Origin: Aestuariibius sp. HNIBRBA575
GTDB lineage: Bacteria; Pseudomonadota; Alphaproteobacteria; Rhodobacterales; Rhodobacteraceae
Length of the DNA stretch: 64,000 nt
NCBI RefSeq assembly: GCF_040932005.1
Contig: NZ_CP162414.1
Location: 1,329,501 to 1,393,500 of the forward strand
Direction of reading: 5' to 3'
Position 1 is the stretch's first letter, and the number at the start of each line of letters is the position of its first letter. Shown in pieces: positions 18,098 through 25,521 of this stretch. The translations under genes were made by a program, and so were the position numbers. Below the pieces are notes generated by a model that saw only the letters and a program-made list of their open reading frames with translations, searched no databases and was not told the origin of the DNA.

Positions 18098-18219
18098 ATC
18101 CCGCGCCGTGATCCGCGTTATTGACAGAAATAGTGTGATGATGTGCCGGGTACAAGCTCAGGTCAGAGAGAGTTGCCCATCAAACGCTGGAAAAACACAT
18201 CATCCTCTTGGCTGAGGGA

Positions 18220-19272
18220 TCATTCCTCATCTTCTTCGTCAGGGTCGATCAGCGTAATTTCACCGCGTTCCGCACAATCCCGCAATGCTGAAATCAATGC
18301 GTTTTGCGCCGCTTCGCCAACAGAGGCCTTGATTTTGGTCTGTTCTGCCATTTCTTCTTCGAGTTGGCTGGCCATCCGTTTTGAGATGTTTTCCAACATG
18401 AAAGTCACGGAATCTGCGCTGGCTTCGCCCACGGCATTGCCATAAGCGAGCGCAATGACAAATTCGTCATTTTCAACCAAGCGGATCACCTTGGCCACAT
18501 CGGTGGGCTGCAATCGCAGCGCAATGTCAGGGAAGGTAAAGATGTTTTTGCGCACTTCCTGAGCAAAGTTTGGATCCTCTTCGCTCAACCCTTCGAGTAC
18601 GTCTTCGCGGGTTTCTGATTTGGTAGAATTCAAAATGGCCCCTACGCGGGCGCCGGCCGGGGCAGGGAAGGCCGTCACTTTGTCAGAAACATAAGTTTCG
18701 GCCAAGGCTCCGCCAATGCGCTGCACAGCCGTTGGGGCAATATCCCCGGTTTGCGAAACGCCATAGGCGATCCTGCGGGCCTTATCGCCGGGCAGGCGGC
18801 CCAACAATTCCGCGGCTTTGCCAACAGGGAGTTTTGACAGAACCACAGCGCAGACTTCGGTGCATTCTGCCTCCATAATTTGCATCAATTCGTCGGCTTC
18901 CATTTCAATCAGGCGTGGCCATGGGTCACCTGTCGCTGCGGATCCGGTTTCTTCGCGAAAACGCGCCATGGCGGTGGGGCTGATTTGGCCGTCCAACGCT
19001 GAAACCGCCGCAGCGGGGCCGCCGGGCAGGGCCAGGCCCACTTCGCTGAGTTCCTGAACAAACTCTTCGGCGACGGCGGCAATGGTTGCCTTGTCCACCA
19101 TGCGCAAAGCGGCCACTTCGTGGGTGAGGCGCAATTGATGTTCTTCGGGGAGGGAATCTAGCGCTAATTTCTGGCCATCCGCCAGCATCATCTGAACAAT
19201 CAATGCAGCCTTGCGGCTACGGGTCATGGGTTCGTTAGAAGGAAGAGCGAGATTGCCAGCCATATTCATCAT
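18220..19272 (-). CDS. fliG: FliG-like flagellar motor switch protein, isolated
   Basis: The roughly 350-aa sequence resembles FliG, the rotor protein linking the MS ring to the stator. Matching features are the N-terminal SRKAALIVQMMLADG, the middle-domain segment VVLSKLPVGKAAELLGRLPGDKARRIAYG, and the C-terminal IFTFPDIALRL and ISKRMASQLEEEM. The torque helix normally reads like DDR followed by a conserved polar pattern; here it reads RLQPTDVAKVIRLV, so residues known to matter in E. coli are not conserved. The tail is very acidic (DPDEEDEE). No other flagellar gene is in the window. The start is uncertain among three close ATG codons (19272, 19269, 19263). It lies 119 bp from the quorum-sensing genes. 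Confidence 0.72.
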   Translation of the reverse strand: MMNMAGNLALPSNEPMTRSRKAALIVQMMLADGQKLALDSLPEEHQLRLTHEVAALRMVDKATIAAVAEEFVQELSEVGLALPGGPAAAVSALDGQISPTAMARFREETGSAATGDPWPRLIEMEADELMQIMEAECTEVCAVVLSKLPVGKAAELLGRLPGDKARRIAYGVSQTGDIAPTAVQRIGGALAETYVSDKVTAFPAPAGARVGAILNSTKSETREDVLEGLSEEDPNFAQEVRKNIFTFPDIALRLQPTDVAKVIRLVENDEFVIALAYGNAVGEASADSVTFMLENISKRMASQLEEEMAEQTKIKASVGEAAQNALISALRDCAERGEITLIDPDEEDEE

Positions 19273-19391
19273 GCGCCTGTTCGTTGAGTCGCTTCTTTTT
19301 CGCGCAAGCTGGTGAATAAAGAGTTGAAGCCGCCCTAAAAAGAGCGGCTCCAACCATAGGTAGAATTTTATTTATCGCGCCTGTCTGCGCC

Positions 19392-19892
19392 TTAATTGGG
19401 GCGCCGTTCAGGATGCGTGAATTTGACGGACATGTTTTTCAACGCCGATCTGGCATCAGGCGTAAGCTTGCCTTCGTGGCTGGTGATCCTGTGCAAATGC
19501 GCCACATCTTTGGCCAATGCATCGATTTCGGCATCCGTATATTCGCGATCCGCGCGTGCAAAACCGGCAAAACTGCGTGATCCTGCCTCTTCGATTGCAT
19601 ATGCGGAACCATGGACAATTCCAAATTCTCGTGCCTTTTCAAGCACTCCGAACTCATCTTCGGCTTCAAAATCTGCCCAGCGAGCTTTGCCTAAATTGGA
19701 AAAGCCCCAGCGAACAACCGGGTCTTGCATCACCAAACCGTGTTCTGAATAATAATCCATCCAGTCCTTTCTATAGGTCTGAAACAGGAAATCGGGGGTC
19801 GTAAATGTCACATGAAACGCGATGGCAAACCCCGATGGGCTCGCATCCTCGATACGCTTCAGGACTGGCATGATGTCGGATTCTATAGACAT
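19392..19892 (-). CDS. Autoinducer-binding domain protein lacking the LuxR HTH
   Basis: This 166-aa protein is a stand-alone autoinducer-binding domain. Residues that contact the acyl-homoserine lactone in LuxR proteins are present: W44, Y48 (W-x3-Y), D57 in a DP motif, and W72. It shares RSFAGFARADREYTDAEIDAL with the divergent full LuxR gene, so the two look like paralogues. After KLTPDARSAL, which resembles the first HTH helix, the frame ends in MSVKFTHPERRPN; the DNA-binding domain is absent and the 119-nt gap to fliG is too short to hold one. AAAGGA lies 7 nt before the ATG. By analogy with the truncated TraR-like protein TrlR of Agrobacterium it may bind signal or form inactive heterodimers; this is inference. 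Confidence 0.8.
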   Translation of the reverse strand: MSIESDIMPVLKRIEDASPSGFAIAFHVTFTTPDFLFQTYRKDWMDYYSEHGLVMQDPVVRWGFSNLGKARWADFEAEDEFGVLEKAREFGIVHGSAYAIEEAGSRSFAGFARADREYTDAEIDALAKDVAHLHRITSHEGKLTPDARSALKNMSVKFTHPERRPN

Positions 19893-19920
19893 GTGCAGGT
19901 CCTTTAACTCGCTTTCTAGT

Positions 19921-19939
19921 TGCCTGTCGCGATATGATC
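19921..19939 (+). repeat. 19-bp direct repeat, copy 1 (divergent luxR region)
   Basis: TGCCTGTCGCGA-TATGATC. It matches copy 2 at 20000-20018 in 17 of 19 positions, in the same orientation, 79 bp apart. It lies 29 bp upstream of the HTH-less gene. The core TGTCGCGA is near-palindromic. The pair may be a LuxR-type operator. Confidence 0.6.
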
Positions 19940-19999
19940 AAAGTAATGTATCAGTGACAACATAATCAAAGGTTAGCTATTTGATGAACAAATGGTTAA

Positions 20000-20018
20000 T
20001 GCCTGTCGCGACAAGATC
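20000..20018 (+). repeat. 19-bp direct repeat, copy 2, overlapping the luxR leader
   Basis: TGCCTGTCGCGA-CAAGATC. It contains the perfect 10-bp palindrome TGTCGCGACA. It abuts the ribosome binding site (GAGGG at 20019-20023) of the LuxR gene, so a protein bound here could block transcription of luxR. Confidence 0.6.
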
Positions 20019-20030
20019 GAGGGTTTGTGT

Positions 20031-20639
20031 ATGAGCAAAGAGCTAGAGGAAGGTGATCTGCTGCAGATTTCACCATCTGGCTATCATATCGCTCTGCGGG
20101 TTGGCTTCGCGTTTCCGCTGGCGGAAATCAATGCCTTTCCGGCCGGTTGGATCGATCACTACACGCAACAAAGGTTCATGTTGTTCGACCCGATCATACG
20201 GTGGGTCTATTCAAATACCGGCGCAATCCGTTGGAGCGAATGCCCCCTAGAAGACCCCCGTAAGGTTCTGGGGCAGGCGGCCACATTTGGGCTGCGCTTT
20301 GGGGTTGCGATTTCCTGTTTTGATGGCAATGCCGAAGGACAACGTAGTTTTGGGTCCTTTGCGCGGTCTGATCGTGAATTCACTGATCCCGAAATCAAAG
20401 CTCTGACGGCCTATGTTTCCTATCGCCATATGGAAATGGCCCCCCCGACCAATTTGACCCGCGCCGAACTGGAAGCGTTGGGTATGGTCAAACAGGGAAT
20501 GCGTCTAAAACAGATCGCGTTTGAGATTGGGGTGACCGAAGGCGCGGTCAAACAGCGCCTGAAAAATGCAAAGCTGAAATTGCATGCTCAGACCTCTGCT
20601 CAGGCGGCGACGCGGGCCCATGAATTCGGCCTGATTTGA
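20031..20639 (+). CDS. luxR: LuxR-family quorum-sensing transcriptional regulator
   Basis: A 202-aa LuxR-type regulator. The N-terminal autoinducer domain has W40, Y44, D53 (DP) and W68 in the positions that bind acyl-homoserine lactone in TraR/LuxR. The C-terminal GerE-type HTH begins near residue 140 (LTRAELEAL) and has the recognition-helix region IAFEIGVTEGAVKQRLKNAKLKL. ATG 20031 is chosen over 19992 because GAGGG lies 7 nt upstream and the longer frame would include the direct repeat. It diverges from the HTH-less paralogue and is followed 276 bp later by the luxI-type synthase, its likely partner. Confidence 0.9.
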   Translation: MSKELEEGDLLQISPSGYHIALRVGFAFPLAEINAFPAGWIDHYTQQRFMLFDPIIRWVYSNTGAIRWSECPLEDPRKVLGQAATFGLRFGVAISCFDGNAEGQRSFGSFARSDREFTDPEIKALTAYVSYRHMEMAPPTNLTRAELEALGMVKQGMRLKQIAFEIGVTEGAVKQRLKNAKLKLHAQTSAQAATRAHEFGLI

Positions 20640-20686
20640 GCCGTATTGTCGCTATTTAAGCCGCGAATCACTTTGGTTATTCGGCA

Positions 20687-20701
20687 TTAATTGTTTGTTA
20701 A
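20687..20701. promoter_or_regulatory. CtrA-like site TTAA-N7-TTAA upstream of luxI
   Basis: TTAA at 20687-20690 and TTAA at 20698-20701 are separated by exactly 7 nt, the alphaproteobacterial CtrA full-site pattern. It lies 215 bp upstream of the luxI ATG and 48 bp after the luxR stop. The region is AT-rich, so chance is possible. Confidence 0.4.
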
Positions 20702-20812
20702 TCTGTTTTCCGCAAATACTAAGAGTACCTGTATTTGTGTACGGCCATTTTGGCGGAAAATGCACACACGTCTAAGTTGATATAGCGCAAGCAATTGCAT
20801 GTCGTTTTTGTG

Positions 20813-20854
20813 ATAATTTGCAAAATTATGGAAACAATCGGCAAAGATTGTTTC
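20813..20854. promoter_or_regulatory. Two adjacent inverted repeats upstream of luxI
   Basis: The first is ATAATTT-N3-AAATTAT (20813-20829). The second, 1 bp later, is GAAACAATC-N6-GATTGTTTC (20831-20854) with perfect 9-bp arms. The second ends 62 bp before the luxI ATG, where a regulator near the -35 region would bind. They may be LuxR operators or part of a leader hairpin. Confidence 0.5.
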
Positions 20855-20915
20855 TAGACCGTTAACAACCATTGCGTGGGCTGGCTTAATGGACTCTCCA
20901 ATAAGGAGAGTACCC

Positions 20916-21572
20916 ATGGAATTCATCACACTGAAACTGTCTGATCTTCACAAATATGGTTCTGCCTATTTCGATTACCTGGCTCTGCGGAAACGGTTCT
21001 TTGTTGATACGTTAAATTGGACGATCCCGCATGACGATGCCGTCGAGATGGATCAATATGATAACCCTCAGGCGCGGTATTCGATTGTTTTGCAGGATGG
21101 CAAGGTGATCGCGGGCGCGCGCGCCATGCCCACCACATCGCGCTGGGGCGACAGCACCTATATGTTACGCGATGCCTATACCGGGAAAATTGCCGGCATC
21201 CCGTCGGATCTGATCGACCATGAAATCGTGACGCCGGATATGTGGGAATGCACCCGCTTGGTGATTTCGCCAGATGTGAAAACAATGTCTGAGCGGACCG
21301 AATGCCTGAAACTGATCTGCGAAGGGTTGGTGGAAATGGCGCTGGCAGAAGGTGCGACAGAATTGATGTCGCTGTCCAACCTGTGGTTGCTGCGGTCGCT
21401 GAAATCGATCGGCTACAAAGCTGAACTGATGTGCAAGCCTTATACAAATTCTGAGGATGGGCATCGCTATGCGGTGATGAAGATGCACGCGGATCGGATT
21501 ATGCCGACTGTGACGCCTCATGTGCCGACCCATATGCCTACGCAGCCCGTTCCGGTACATGCCAAGGCCTAA
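20916..21572 (+). CDS. luxI: Acyl-homoserine-lactone synthase (LuxI family)
   Basis: The enzyme makes acyl-homoserine lactone from S-adenosylmethionine and an acyl donor. Conserved LuxI-family residues are all present: R25, F29, W35, D46, D49, R69, and E111/R114 in WECTRLVIS. The region between R69 and E111 is longer than in LuxI itself and fits the roseobacter branch. The C-terminus ends in a Pro/His/Met-rich tail (VTPHVPTHMPTQPVPVHAKA) outside the catalytic fold. AAGGAGAG sits 5 nt before ATG 20916, a strong ribosome binding site. The 218-aa length is normal. The acyl chain made cannot be predicted. Confidence 0.92.
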   Translation: MEFITLKLSDLHKYGSAYFDYLALRKRFFVDTLNWTIPHDDAVEMDQYDNPQARYSIVLQDGKVIAGARAMPTTSRWGDSTYMLRDAYTGKIAGIPSDLIDHEIVTPDMWECTRLVISPDVKTMSERTECLKLICEGLVEMALAEGATELMSLSNLWLLRSLKSIGYKAELMCKPYTNSEDGHRYAVMKMHADRIMPTVTPHVPTHMPTQPVPVHAKA

Positions 21573-21594
21573 ACTTGGATTGAACCCAAGTTTT
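21571..21594 (+). terminator. Terminator of luxI
   Basis: An 8-bp stem AAACTTGG (21571-21578) with CCAAGTTT (21586-21593) starts inside the stop codon and ends in TTTT. The T-run is short, so termination may be partial. A second hairpin follows at 21604-21627. Confidence 0.6.
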
Positions 21595-21603
21595 AACGCA
21601 ATA

Positions 21604-21627
21604 GCCCGGCGCAGGGATGCGCCGGGC
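21604..21627. other. GC-rich hairpin between convergent luxI and purB
   Basis: A perfect 10-bp stem (21604-21613 with 21618-21627) has loop GGGA. Neither strand has a T-run after it, so it is not a canonical intrinsic terminator, but it could protect mRNA 3' ends or aid termination for both genes. Confidence 0.6.
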
Positions 21628-21653
21628 CAAAAAATTGTCACAACAATCTGGGT

Positions 21654-22961
21654 TTAGCTTTCGCCAAACACCCGTTTGAAAATCGTATCAACATGTTTGG
21701 TGTGATAGCCGAGGTCAAATTTCTCTTCGATCTCATCCACACCCAAAGCTTTGACAACCGCTTCGTCGGCCAGCAATTCACCTTTGAAATCACAGCCTGT
21801 TTCCCAAACTTTCAATGCGTTGCGCTGCACCATACGATAGGCGTCTTCGCGGTTCACGCCCGCTTGGGTCAGGGCCAGCAACACACGTTGTGACATCACC
21901 AATCCGGGGAATTTGTTCATGTTGGCCAGCATGTTTTCAGGATAAACCAGCAATTTGTCGATCACCGATGTCAAACGCGCCAGTGCAAAATCCAGCGTGA
22001 TTGTCGTGTCTGGGCCGATGTTACGTTCGACCGAGGAATGCGAAATATCGCGTTCGTGCCACAGGGCGACGTTTTCCATCGCGGGCACCACCGCCATACG
22101 CACCAAGCGCGCCAGACCGGTCAGGTTTTCGGTCAGCACTGGGTTTTTCTTGTGGGGCATCGCGGATGACCCTTTCTGACCCATTGAGAAAAATTCAGCC
22201 GCTTCCAACACTTCTGTGCGCTGCATGTGGCGAATTTCGGTGGCGATGTTTTCAACCGACGAACCTACCACGCCCAAAGCGGCAAAAAACGCCGCATGAC
22301 GATCCCGTGGAATTACTTGGGTGGAAATCGGTTCGGGGCTCAGGCCCAGTTTGGCGCAAACATGTTCCTCAACCGCGGGGTCGATATTGGCAAATGTGCC
22401 AACCGCCCCGGAAATGGCACCGGTCGCGATTTCTGCGCGGGCCGTTTCCAGACGGGCAAGGTTGCGATCCATTTCCGCGTAAAAACGCGCAAATGTCAGA
22501 CCCATTGTTGTGGGCTCCGCGTGGATGCCGTGGCTGCGCCCGATGCGAATGGTGTTTTTATGTTCCAAAGCGCGGCGTTTTAGGGCGGCAAGCAATCCGT
22601 CCATGTCTTTGATCAGGATATCCGCGGCTTTAACCAGCTGGACATTGAAACAGGTGTCCAACACATCCGACGATGTCATCCCCTGATGCACAAAGCGCGC
22701 CTCTTCGCTGCCGACATGTTCGGCCAGATGGGTCAGGAACGCGATGACATCGTGTTTGGTTTCGGCTTCGATTTCATCGATGCGCGCCACGTCGAATTCC
22801 ACATCTTTGGCTTTCCAGACCGCATCGGCGTTTTCACGGGGGATCACACCCAGATCGGCCATCGCATCACAGGCATGTGCTTCGATTTCGTACCAGATCT
22901 TGAACTTGGATTCTGGTGACCAGATGGCAACCATATCGGGACGGGAATAACGTGGGATCAT
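21654..22961 (-). CDS. purB: Adenylosuccinate lyase
   Basis: PurB catalyses two fumarate-releasing steps in purine synthesis (SAICAR to AICAR, and adenylosuccinate to AMP). The fumarase/aspartase superfamily signature SSAMPHKKNP is present near residue 265, along with THLAEHVG, the MTSSDVLDT loop and GRSHGIHAEPTTMG. Length 435 aa is standard. AAGG lies upstream of the ATG. It converges on luxI, and its upstream side is a 666-nt region without genes. Confidence 0.97.
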   Translation of the reverse strand: MIPRYSRPDMVAIWSPESKFKIWYEIEAHACDAMADLGVIPRENADAVWKAKDVEFDVARIDEIEAETKHDVIAFLTHLAEHVGSEEARFVHQGMTSSDVLDTCFNVQLVKAADILIKDMDGLLAALKRRALEHKNTIRIGRSHGIHAEPTTMGLTFARFYAEMDRNLARLETARAEIATGAISGAVGTFANIDPAVEEHVCAKLGLSPEPISTQVIPRDRHAAFFAALGVVGSSVENIATEIRHMQRTEVLEAAEFFSMGQKGSSAMPHKKNPVLTENLTGLARLVRMAVVPAMENVALWHERDISHSSVERNIGPDTTITLDFALARLTSVIDKLLVYPENMLANMNKFPGLVMSQRVLLALTQAGVNREDAYRMVQRNALKVWETGCDFKGELLADEAVVKALGVDEIEEKFDLGYHTKHVDTIFKRVFGES

Positions 22962-24097: not shown

Positions 24098-25315
24098 TCA
24101 GATTTCGGCCAGTTGGGTTTTCACAATATTTGAGCGTTCCAATGTCCTATGAACCGGGCATTTATCTGCGATTTCCAGCAATTTAGCGCGCTGTTCATCC
24201 GTTAGATCACCCGATAAATGAATGACCCTGTGAAATTGATCAACTTTGGCGTCTGAACCCGGCTGCGCGTCTTGGGCGTGCACCTTGTTATGGCTGACAT
24301 CTACGCTGATCCCACGCAATGGCCAGCCTTTGCGGCGGGCATACATGCGGATGGTCATCGACGTACATGCGCCAAGCCCGGCCGAGACAAAACCATAGGG
24401 CGACATGCCACGGTTTGTGCCGCCATAGGCCAACGGCTCATCCGCCAAGGCGTGATGACCGGGGCCGGATTGAATATCTTGTAGAAAACCGTCTGAATCG
24501 GCTTCGGTGACACGCAACACGCCTTCGGGCACGCCCGGTGGGGGGGCCGGGGGCGTTAGATCCAGATATCGCCTGCTCCAGGCGGCAATCACATCTGCGG
24601 CGTATTCTGCATCCTCTAACCGAGTGATCAAATGGTCGGCATCATCAAGCGTGACAAAGCTTTTGGGATGTTTGGCGGCCGCAAAAATGTCGCTGGCGTT
24701 TTCAATGCCAACAATAGTGTCGTGGGGGCCATGCAGCACCATCAGCGCGGCTTTTAGATTGGCGATGGCTGGGCGCAAATCCTCTGTAATGACATCCTGA
24801 ACAAAGTCCTGATTGATCCGAAAGGGCCGCCCGCCTAAATTCACTTCGGATACGCCATTTTCCGCAATTTTGGGCAGTTCACTGGCGAAATTATGGGTGA
24901 CATGGGCGGGATCAAACGGCGCACCCAGCGTCGCGACGGCCTTGATTTGGGGCATTTGCGCGGCTGCCTTTAGGACCGCAGCCCCACCAAGCGAATGTCC
25001 GATCAGCATGGTCGGTGCCATGCCACGGCTGGTCAAAGCGTTACATGCGGCGGTTAAATCCGCAACATTTGAGTTGAAATGCGTGTTTTCAAACTCACCC
25101 TCGGAATGGCCCAAGCCTGTGAAATCAAACCGTAAAACAGCGATGCCCATCGCCGCCAGTCGTGCCGAAATCCGCCGGGCTGCGGGGATGTCTTTGCCGC
25201 AGGTGAAACAATGTGCAAACAAGGCTGTCGCCAAATGAGGCCCGTCCGGCATGTCCAAACGCGCGGCCAATTTGTGTCCGGAATGGCCTAAAAATGTAAA
25301 CCGTTCGGTTGGCAT
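24098..25315 (-). CDS. Bifunctional alpha/beta-hydrolase / OsmC family protein
   Basis: A 405-aa fusion. Residues about 1-250 are an alpha/beta-hydrolase with nucleophile motif GHSLGG and the HCFTCGKD element. Residues about 265-405 are an OsmC/Ohr-type domain with GACTSMTIRMYARRKGWPL (one redox Cys) and DKCPVHRTLE (the second). OsmC domains reduce organic hydroperoxides or related electrophiles. The same fusion is known in many bacteria. ATG 25315 has AAAGGAG 6 nt upstream; the longer frame adds 32 unlike residues. It diverges from the DUF3445 gene. Confidence 0.87.
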   Translation of the reverse strand: MPTERFTFLGHSGHKLAARLDMPDGPHLATALFAHCFTCGKDIPAARRISARLAAMGIAVLRFDFTGLGHSEGEFENTHFNSNVADLTAACNALTSRGMAPTMLIGHSLGGAAVLKAAAQMPQIKAVATLGAPFDPAHVTHNFASELPKIAENGVSEVNLGGRPFRINQDFVQDVITEDLRPAIANLKAALMVLHGPHDTIVGIENASDIFAAAKHPKSFVTLDDADHLITRLEDAEYAADVIAAWSRRYLDLTPPAPPPGVPEGVLRVTEADSDGFLQDIQSGPGHHALADEPLAYGGTNRGMSPYGFVSAGLGACTSMTIRMYARRKGWPLRGISVDVSHNKVHAQDAQPGSDAKVDQFHRVIHLSGDLTDEQRAKLLEIADKCPVHRTLERSNIVKTQLAEI

Positions 25316-25521
25316 GTTGATCTCCTTTGGGGCGTGGTGTCGGCGCTGAGTGTGAACCAACAGGATGGGGCGCGACACGGTGCGGCGCAAGGGACTGAAA
25401 CACGAAGGCACGCAGCCGTGAGCAAAACCCAGAAAGTGTGAACAAACCGCAAATCTGAAAACACGCGCGGTTGCGGGCTTGTCGCGCCGTCGAATTTACC
25501 GTTTTGTGGCGAGATCTATGA

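Follow-up and report, generated by a model that had tools for sequence, protein, structure and literature searches.

The locus considered here raises the question of what a LuxR-type protein that has lost its DNA-binding domain does beside a full-length LuxR receptor encoded on the opposite strand. It lies in the genome of Aestuariibius sp. HNIBRBA575 (family Rhodobacteraceae), within a stretch of 64,000 nucleotides (NZ_CP162414.1, positions 1,329,501 to 1,393,500) that was analyzed as a whole and is called the window below; the short gene is referred to as S and its full-length neighbor as R. What the present analysis adds is the ancient duplication from which the two derive, purifying selection on S, the W57F substitution as an exception and a conserved block between the genes. 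An AHL-dependent antagonist proven in one species is now tied to a printed, unexplained locus type found in many genera.

The locus and its earlier descriptions

In the window, fliG and S occupy the minus strand, R and then luxI the plus strand, and purB closes the locus (Table 1). The arrangement, which an earlier note on this DNA took to be possibly undescribed, is already known. It was printed in 2013 as roseobacter topology D, with two luxR loci per luxI in each of six genomes and with fliG and adenylosuccinate lyase noted as neighbors (PMC3824088); the word "truncated" does not occur in the available parts of that paper. In 2015 the order fliG-[hp-abd]-luxR-asl was printed for LuxR solo group 4, and it was suggested, with TrlR cited, that proteins consisting of the ABD alone either sequester the ligand or bind to LuxR (PMC4338825). 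Both are the same locus (fliG opposite, a short luxR or abd gene, luxR, optionally luxI, and purB), and both borders of topology D flank luxRI in the window, namely fliG upstream on the opposite strand and purB downstream; the available parts of the two papers contain no test of the short gene. Our literature search found no paper joining topology D with the CerN/CerM pair of Cereibacter sphaeroides, and the name CerN does not occur in the available parts of a 2026 paper that covers TrlR (PMC13043044).

Table 1. Positions of the genes and candidate control elements of the S|R locus in the window
Feature	Position	Strand	Remarks
fliG	18220..19272	-	FliG_N, FliG_M and FliG_C above Pfam cut-offs
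15-pair hairpin, terminator-like, between S and fliG	19322..19355	-	weak
S, HTH-less LuxR paralogue, CerN clade	19392..19892	-	166 aa; Autoind_bind alone
Conserved block, consensus ACTCGCTTTnaGGTTGC	19907..19923		14 nt upstream of the S start codon; candidate operator/promoter
Candidate R promoter TTGCCT-N18-TAATGT	19920..19949	+	conserved spacing alone
Two 19-nt repeats TGCCTGTCGCGAYAWGATC	19921-19939, 20000-20018		within 19921..20018
R, full-length LuxR, CerM clade	20031..20639	+	202 aa; Autoind_bind + GerE
luxI, AHL synthase	20916..21572	+	Autoind_synth 52.2 bits (cut-off 24)
purB, right border of topology D	21654..22961	-	TIGR00928 500.6 bits (cut-off 326.2)

Several gene calls deserve comment. 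The start of fliG is uncertain (ATG at 19263-19272, or TTG at 19353), and the protein scores 112.3 bits against TIGR00207, under the NCBIfam cut-off of 226.7; it is the one match to FliG_C in the whole genome. The R start at 20031 is favored over 19992, since alignments with relatives begin at residue 14 of the longer open reading frame, and the ribosome site makes a luxI start at 20916 (218 aa) the more likely one. S and fliG may form an operon; the hairpin between them says little against this, terminator-like hairpins being no commoner than chance (5 found, 5.1 expected by shuffling). A perfect 9-nt inverted repeat, GAAACAATC/GATTGTTTC, lies upstream of luxI (20831-20854) and was also scored as a terminator-like hairpin.

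Domain content of S and R

Pfam, BLASTP and the pocket alignment agree with the earlier description of a divergent pair of LuxR-fold proteins that share the ligand residues and an RSFxxFARxDRExTD run. The sole Pfam match of S is to Autoind_bind (44.6 bits, cut-off 23, profile positions 37-136 of 149), while R matches both Autoind_bind (56.1 bits, profile 39-132) and GerE (26.4 bits, cut-off 23.5), and the two proteins are 40% identical over 120 aa, the run included (E 9e-30). The six residues of the AHL pocket, W57, Y61, D70, P71, W85 and G113 in TraR numbering according to the available part of PMC11655674, are all kept in S (W44, Y48, D57, P58, W72 and G95) and all kept in R, where W40 sits at TraR position 57.

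The C-terminal GerE HTH of canonical LuxR is absent from S by Pfam and by an HTH model run on the reading frames; behind the S stop codon, the three minus-strand frames score below 0 bits with this model (R scores 115), i.e., no HTH remnant was found there. The BLAST match between the C. sphaeroides protein P0125, a relative of S, and a Cereibacter R spans the first HTH helix and then ends, and because it stops there the reading that S ends at about this helix holds. The AlphaFold2 model of S (pLDDT 92.4, pTM 0.87) has helices at 120-137 and 145-159 and that of R, whose input alignment consisted of 31 R and 3 GtaR-type rows, has HTH helices within 144-198 (pLDDT 93.9); in these models the terminal helix of S (145-159) sits where R has HTH helix 1 (144-154). 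The 50 PDB matches listed by Foldseek for S are LuxR-type receptors with TM-scores of about 0.5-0.64 by query length, TraR (1l3l) among them with E 4.6e-07 and a TM-score of 0.57.

Distribution among relatives

A first survey of the own genome and 100 relatives gave matches to S at E 0.001 in 34 of 101 genomes, full-length paralogues included. A profile made from 12 aligned short proteins matched 193 of 394 genomes of the family at E 1e-10, GtaR-type receptors included, and a contig search yielded 194 stretches, of which 175 were confirmed and the best 80 kept. The 161 loci gathered, duplicates counted, comprise 159 with a receptor match and 112 with S. The earlier note had proposed to look for the same divergent arrangement in roseobacter genomes: it is found there as 81 distinct S|R pairs after removal of identical pairs, 57 of them from contig-search loci and some genomes giving more than one, with the reservation that S was defined here by the lack of a match to the HTH model, which makes the count of S partly circular. 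The genera include Loktanella, Octadecabacter, Yoonia, Marivivens, Defluviimonas, Amaricoccus, Limimaricola, Rubellimicrobium and Thalassobius. At least 47 of the 81 pairs are accompanied by luxI and at least 30 by fliG, many of the stretches being short. Among 385 genomes of the class, two match the S profile at E 1e-30, both from the own family; 17 of the 22 genomes listed in this survey belong to other families.

The linkage was also followed from the side of R, in the top 68 rows of a longer list of matches to an R profile (alignment A4, 31 R and 3 GtaR-type sequences). At least 58 of these rows have a divergent S among the matches listed, and two more (L168, L169) have one on closer look, while three (G393, G236, G269) coincide in place and strand with S-search matches and were classed as GtaR-type. 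At L163, R and S stand in tandem with a 4-nt overlap, and at L164 and L165 the order is R-luxI-S, all in one direction, so that S is not divergent in any of the three. At L166 and L167, R lies beside fliG and S was not found in the stretch examined; these are apparent losses of S, and R can therefore live without it. The reverse, an S-like fragment without a divergent partner, was met in the single case of L128. Two further loci (L098, L126) matched the S profile but yielded no S reading frame.

Descent of the pair

Trees were built from the ligand-binding domain alone, whose 143 columns are few for so many rows. In a quick tree of 109 rows, a single branch (SH-aLRT 96) sets all 47 S proteins apart and the 45 R proteins group together with one GtaR-type row (L034; support 99); in a careful tree of 76 rows, whose bootstrap is not fully settled, the S clade (32 rows) is supported by 100/98 and the R clade (30 rows) by 100/100. 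The S clade includes P0125 and the S of Cereibacter locus L044, and the R clade contains Cereibacter rows too. Taken together, the sequences speak for one ancient duplication and one loss of the HTH, followed by joint inheritance of S and R. The distances of S and R are correlated (Mantel r 0.61, 30 loci, 0 of 5000 permutations), which also follows from the shared species history of linked genes.

The Cereibacter members connect the pair with a studied system. The S of L044 shares 98% identity with a protein of Cereibacter johrii, and the order at this locus, S on the minus strand, then R on the plus strand, a CerR-like gene and luxI, is that of the cerN, cerM, cerR and cerI set. P0125 shares 37% identity with the window S (139 aa aligned) and 32% with the R from another Cereibacter genome, the CerN/CerM identity being printed as 31%; P0125 and the CerM, CerR and CerI candidates of L044 score 66.5, 46.2, 128.9 and 282.8 bits with Pfam, and the scores in Table 2 of the same paper are 66.1, 47.5, 128.1 and 281.5 bits (available part of PMC11655674). 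The R of L044 has F at position 57, as CerM does. Identified by elimination and score, P0125 is by all signs CerN.

A recent truncation of S is excluded by the clades, tail lengths, Pfam matches, Ka/Ks values and the lack of any doubly full-length locus. The tail behind the ligand domain measures 6-35 aa in S and 67-71 aa in R, and Pfam finds no HTH family, GerE included, in any of the 54 S proteins of alignment A3. A full-length receptor in place of S, which the earlier note had named as the case that would speak for a recent truncation, occurs at none of the 159 loci with a receptor match, i.e., none has full receptors on both strands.

Selection and residue conservation

Among 23 locus pairs selected for an S identity of 68% or more, the Ka/Ks of the S domain is finite in 19, where it is 0.05-0.36 (Ks is saturated in the other four), and that of R is 0.03-0.27; by these ratios S is under purifying selection. 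In the 81 S proteins, Y61, D70, P71 and W85 are kept in all, G113 in 80 and W57 in 79; among the 81 R proteins, Y61, D70 and P71 are kept in all, W57 in 80, G113 in 79 and W85 in 76. The one R with F at position 57 is that of Cereibacter L044. Some sites are nearly fixed in a reciprocal way: S27 is histidine in 80 of 81 S and arginine in 80 of 81 R, S36 is L or M in S and E in R, and S38 is Q in S and N in R. The tail of S is partly kept, with 64 of 81 proteins matching xS[IVL]xx[TSAV]; L043 and L045 are without it.

The region between S and R

The conserved block was found with a motif fit of 369.5, three shuffled sets giving 112.8-120.3. At 15 bits or more it is present in 33 of the 81 pairs and in 0 of 405 shuffled regions, a comparison that flatters the block since the matrix was fitted to the same regions; refitting on shuffled sets is a fairer test, and both comparisons are inflated by related loci. 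In the genome there is one exact copy and none at one mismatch. At the same threshold the block was not found at L163-L167, where S is tandem or missing, nor at L169-L171, although S is divergent there, and it is absent from all 8 GtaR-type genes and all 80 stretches behind R.

The flanks of the block are little conserved except for TAnnnT, which in 16 of the 33 pairs has a TTGnnn at a distance of exactly 18 nt before it, against a mean of 0.43 pairs at other offsets; with 16-19 nt allowed the count is 19, against a mean of 2.2 and a maximum of 8 in shuffled flanks. The block is thus probably the R promoter; in the window this candidate has 7 of 12 consensus bases, and a sigma-70 scan of 18150-21700 returned 0 sites with 3.7 expected. 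With the block beginning so near the start of S, the promoter of S would have to lie over or beyond it. The 19-nt repeat has no other copy in the genome under two mismatches, which does not suggest a regulon site. The CerM motif TNT(N5)AAGACA(N2)T gives 8 matches in the window at up to one mismatch, with 8.45 expected, and none between S and R.

Possible function of the pair

LuxR proteins pair through the ligand-binding domain, as known structures show. S retains this pairing domain together with the AHL pocket, and we consider it probable that S is an AHL-dependent antagonist of the neighboring LuxR, of common descent with CerN. AHL, probably made by the adjacent LuxI, would drive S:R pairing; the mixed pair, with one DNA-binding domain instead of two, would leave the operator or fail to hold it, and S would thereby set, or reverse, the response of R to AHL. 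That R has to be a dimer, and that the window pair acts as CerN and CerM do, is what we infer. Descent gives support to the idea of the earlier note that the HTH-less paralogue acts on its LuxR neighbor, S standing in one clade with the CerN candidate P0125.

According to the available part of the 2024 paper on CerN and CerM (PMC11655674; a correction of its figure references is PMC11788584), CerM binds DNA without AHL, GST-CerN pulled down CerM only with AHL present, and CerM was released from its site by CerN together with AHL, both in vitro and in E. coli. The signal buffering, threshold or pulse that the earlier note had in mind is a conjecture; since loss of CerN in C. sphaeroides mimics loss of the AHL synthase, the short protein there conveys AHL rather than damping it. 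CerM-DNA complexes were also weakened in vitro, though less so, by AHL alone, and S may for this reason be less needed than it seems. CerM has poor AHL affinity, and its W57F substitution was proposed by the authors as the cause of its AHL-free DNA binding. Like the window pair, CerN and CerM are an HTH-less and a full LuxR side by side, in the same two clades, with luxI nearby and, in the close Cereibacter genome of L044, divergent. The two differ in that L044 has the CerR-like gene between R and luxI, whereas the window pair, known here from sequence, has fliG and purB as neighbors, and in that the window R has W at the position of W57F. Because R keeps this residue, unlike CerM, the AHL effect on it may run in either direction, and the mode of CerM, i.e., DNA binding without AHL and poor AHL affinity, may be inapplicable to R. 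Moreover, W57F is the exception, and AHL may thus act in another direction in most pairs. Whether those R proteins that retain W57 respond to AHL in the direction of TraR or in that of CerM is a testable question.

Motility is the first output to consider, since the sole fliG found in the genome adjoins the pair and, in C. sphaeroides, flagellar genes are under the control of CerN (available part of PMC11655674). The fliG gene of Phaeobacter inhibens is located outside the flagellar cluster, and motility depends on it (available part of PMC11974857).

The alternative that survives best, and that overlaps with the antagonist reading, is that R needs AHL for DNA binding and activation and that S, by forming inactive S:R pairs with the help of AHL, raises the quorum threshold, much as the earlier note supposed. 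It has a precedent in TrlR of Agrobacterium, an HTH-less paralogue that forms inactive pairs with the full LuxR TraR (available parts of PMC3907764 and PMC13043044), and it agrees with the complete pocket of the window R and with the W57 of nearly all R proteins. We regard it as possible and do not favor it: CerM, the closest tested relative, behaves in the opposite way, and TrlR, which is opine induced and carried on the Ti plasmid, is a near copy of its target with 88% identity (available parts of PMC11655674 and PMC3907764), whereas S and R are a family-wide chromosomal pair that differs far more. It is rather unlikely that S|R is an ancestral toggle in which both proteins bind AHL and homodimers stand against heterodimers, the R promoter and a shared operator at the S start make transcription of S and R mutually exclusive, and CerM/CerN with W57F is a derived state.

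Two readings that do without antagonism are both improbable. S could bind AHL and lower its free level without touching R, as was proposed for ABD-only proteins (available part of PMC4338825) and as its intact pocket would allow, but S is linked to R, the two show reciprocal specialization of sites, and CerN binds CerM. S could equally serve mainly to stabilize R, given that CerM is notably reduced in a cerN mutant, but the phenotypes of cerN loss are those of active CerM and are cured by loss of cerM (available part of PMC11655674). That S, being without one domain, is a decaying pseudogene is refuted for practical purposes by Ka/Ks below 0.4, the single clade and the kept pocket.

Other quorum-sensing genes

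The own genome has five genes with Autoind_bind, and two besides those of the window locus adjoin Autoind_synth. One belongs to a second luxR-luxI pair, beside an apparent rplQ (L004, C1:498077-501373), where TGTCTAAAAAGACA, a sequence in agreement with the TNT(N5)AAGACA core that has been printed for GtaR/CerM, overlaps the start codon of luxR (1399); among 8 GtaR-type genes examined, TGTCTAAAAAGACA occurs exactly also at L016 and L019 and in near versions at L014 and L022. The other belongs to a third pair (L001, C1:2935698-2939120; Autoind_synth 79.6 bits), whose neighbor is a gene of the zinc-binding dehydrogenase family, perhaps the crotonyl-CoA reductase of topology B. In the window itself, 2.5 kb from luxI, the minus strand encodes a fusion of an alpha/beta hydrolase with an OsmC-like domain (24098-25411), which matches an AHL-lactonase model weakly (36.2 bits against a cut-off of 400).
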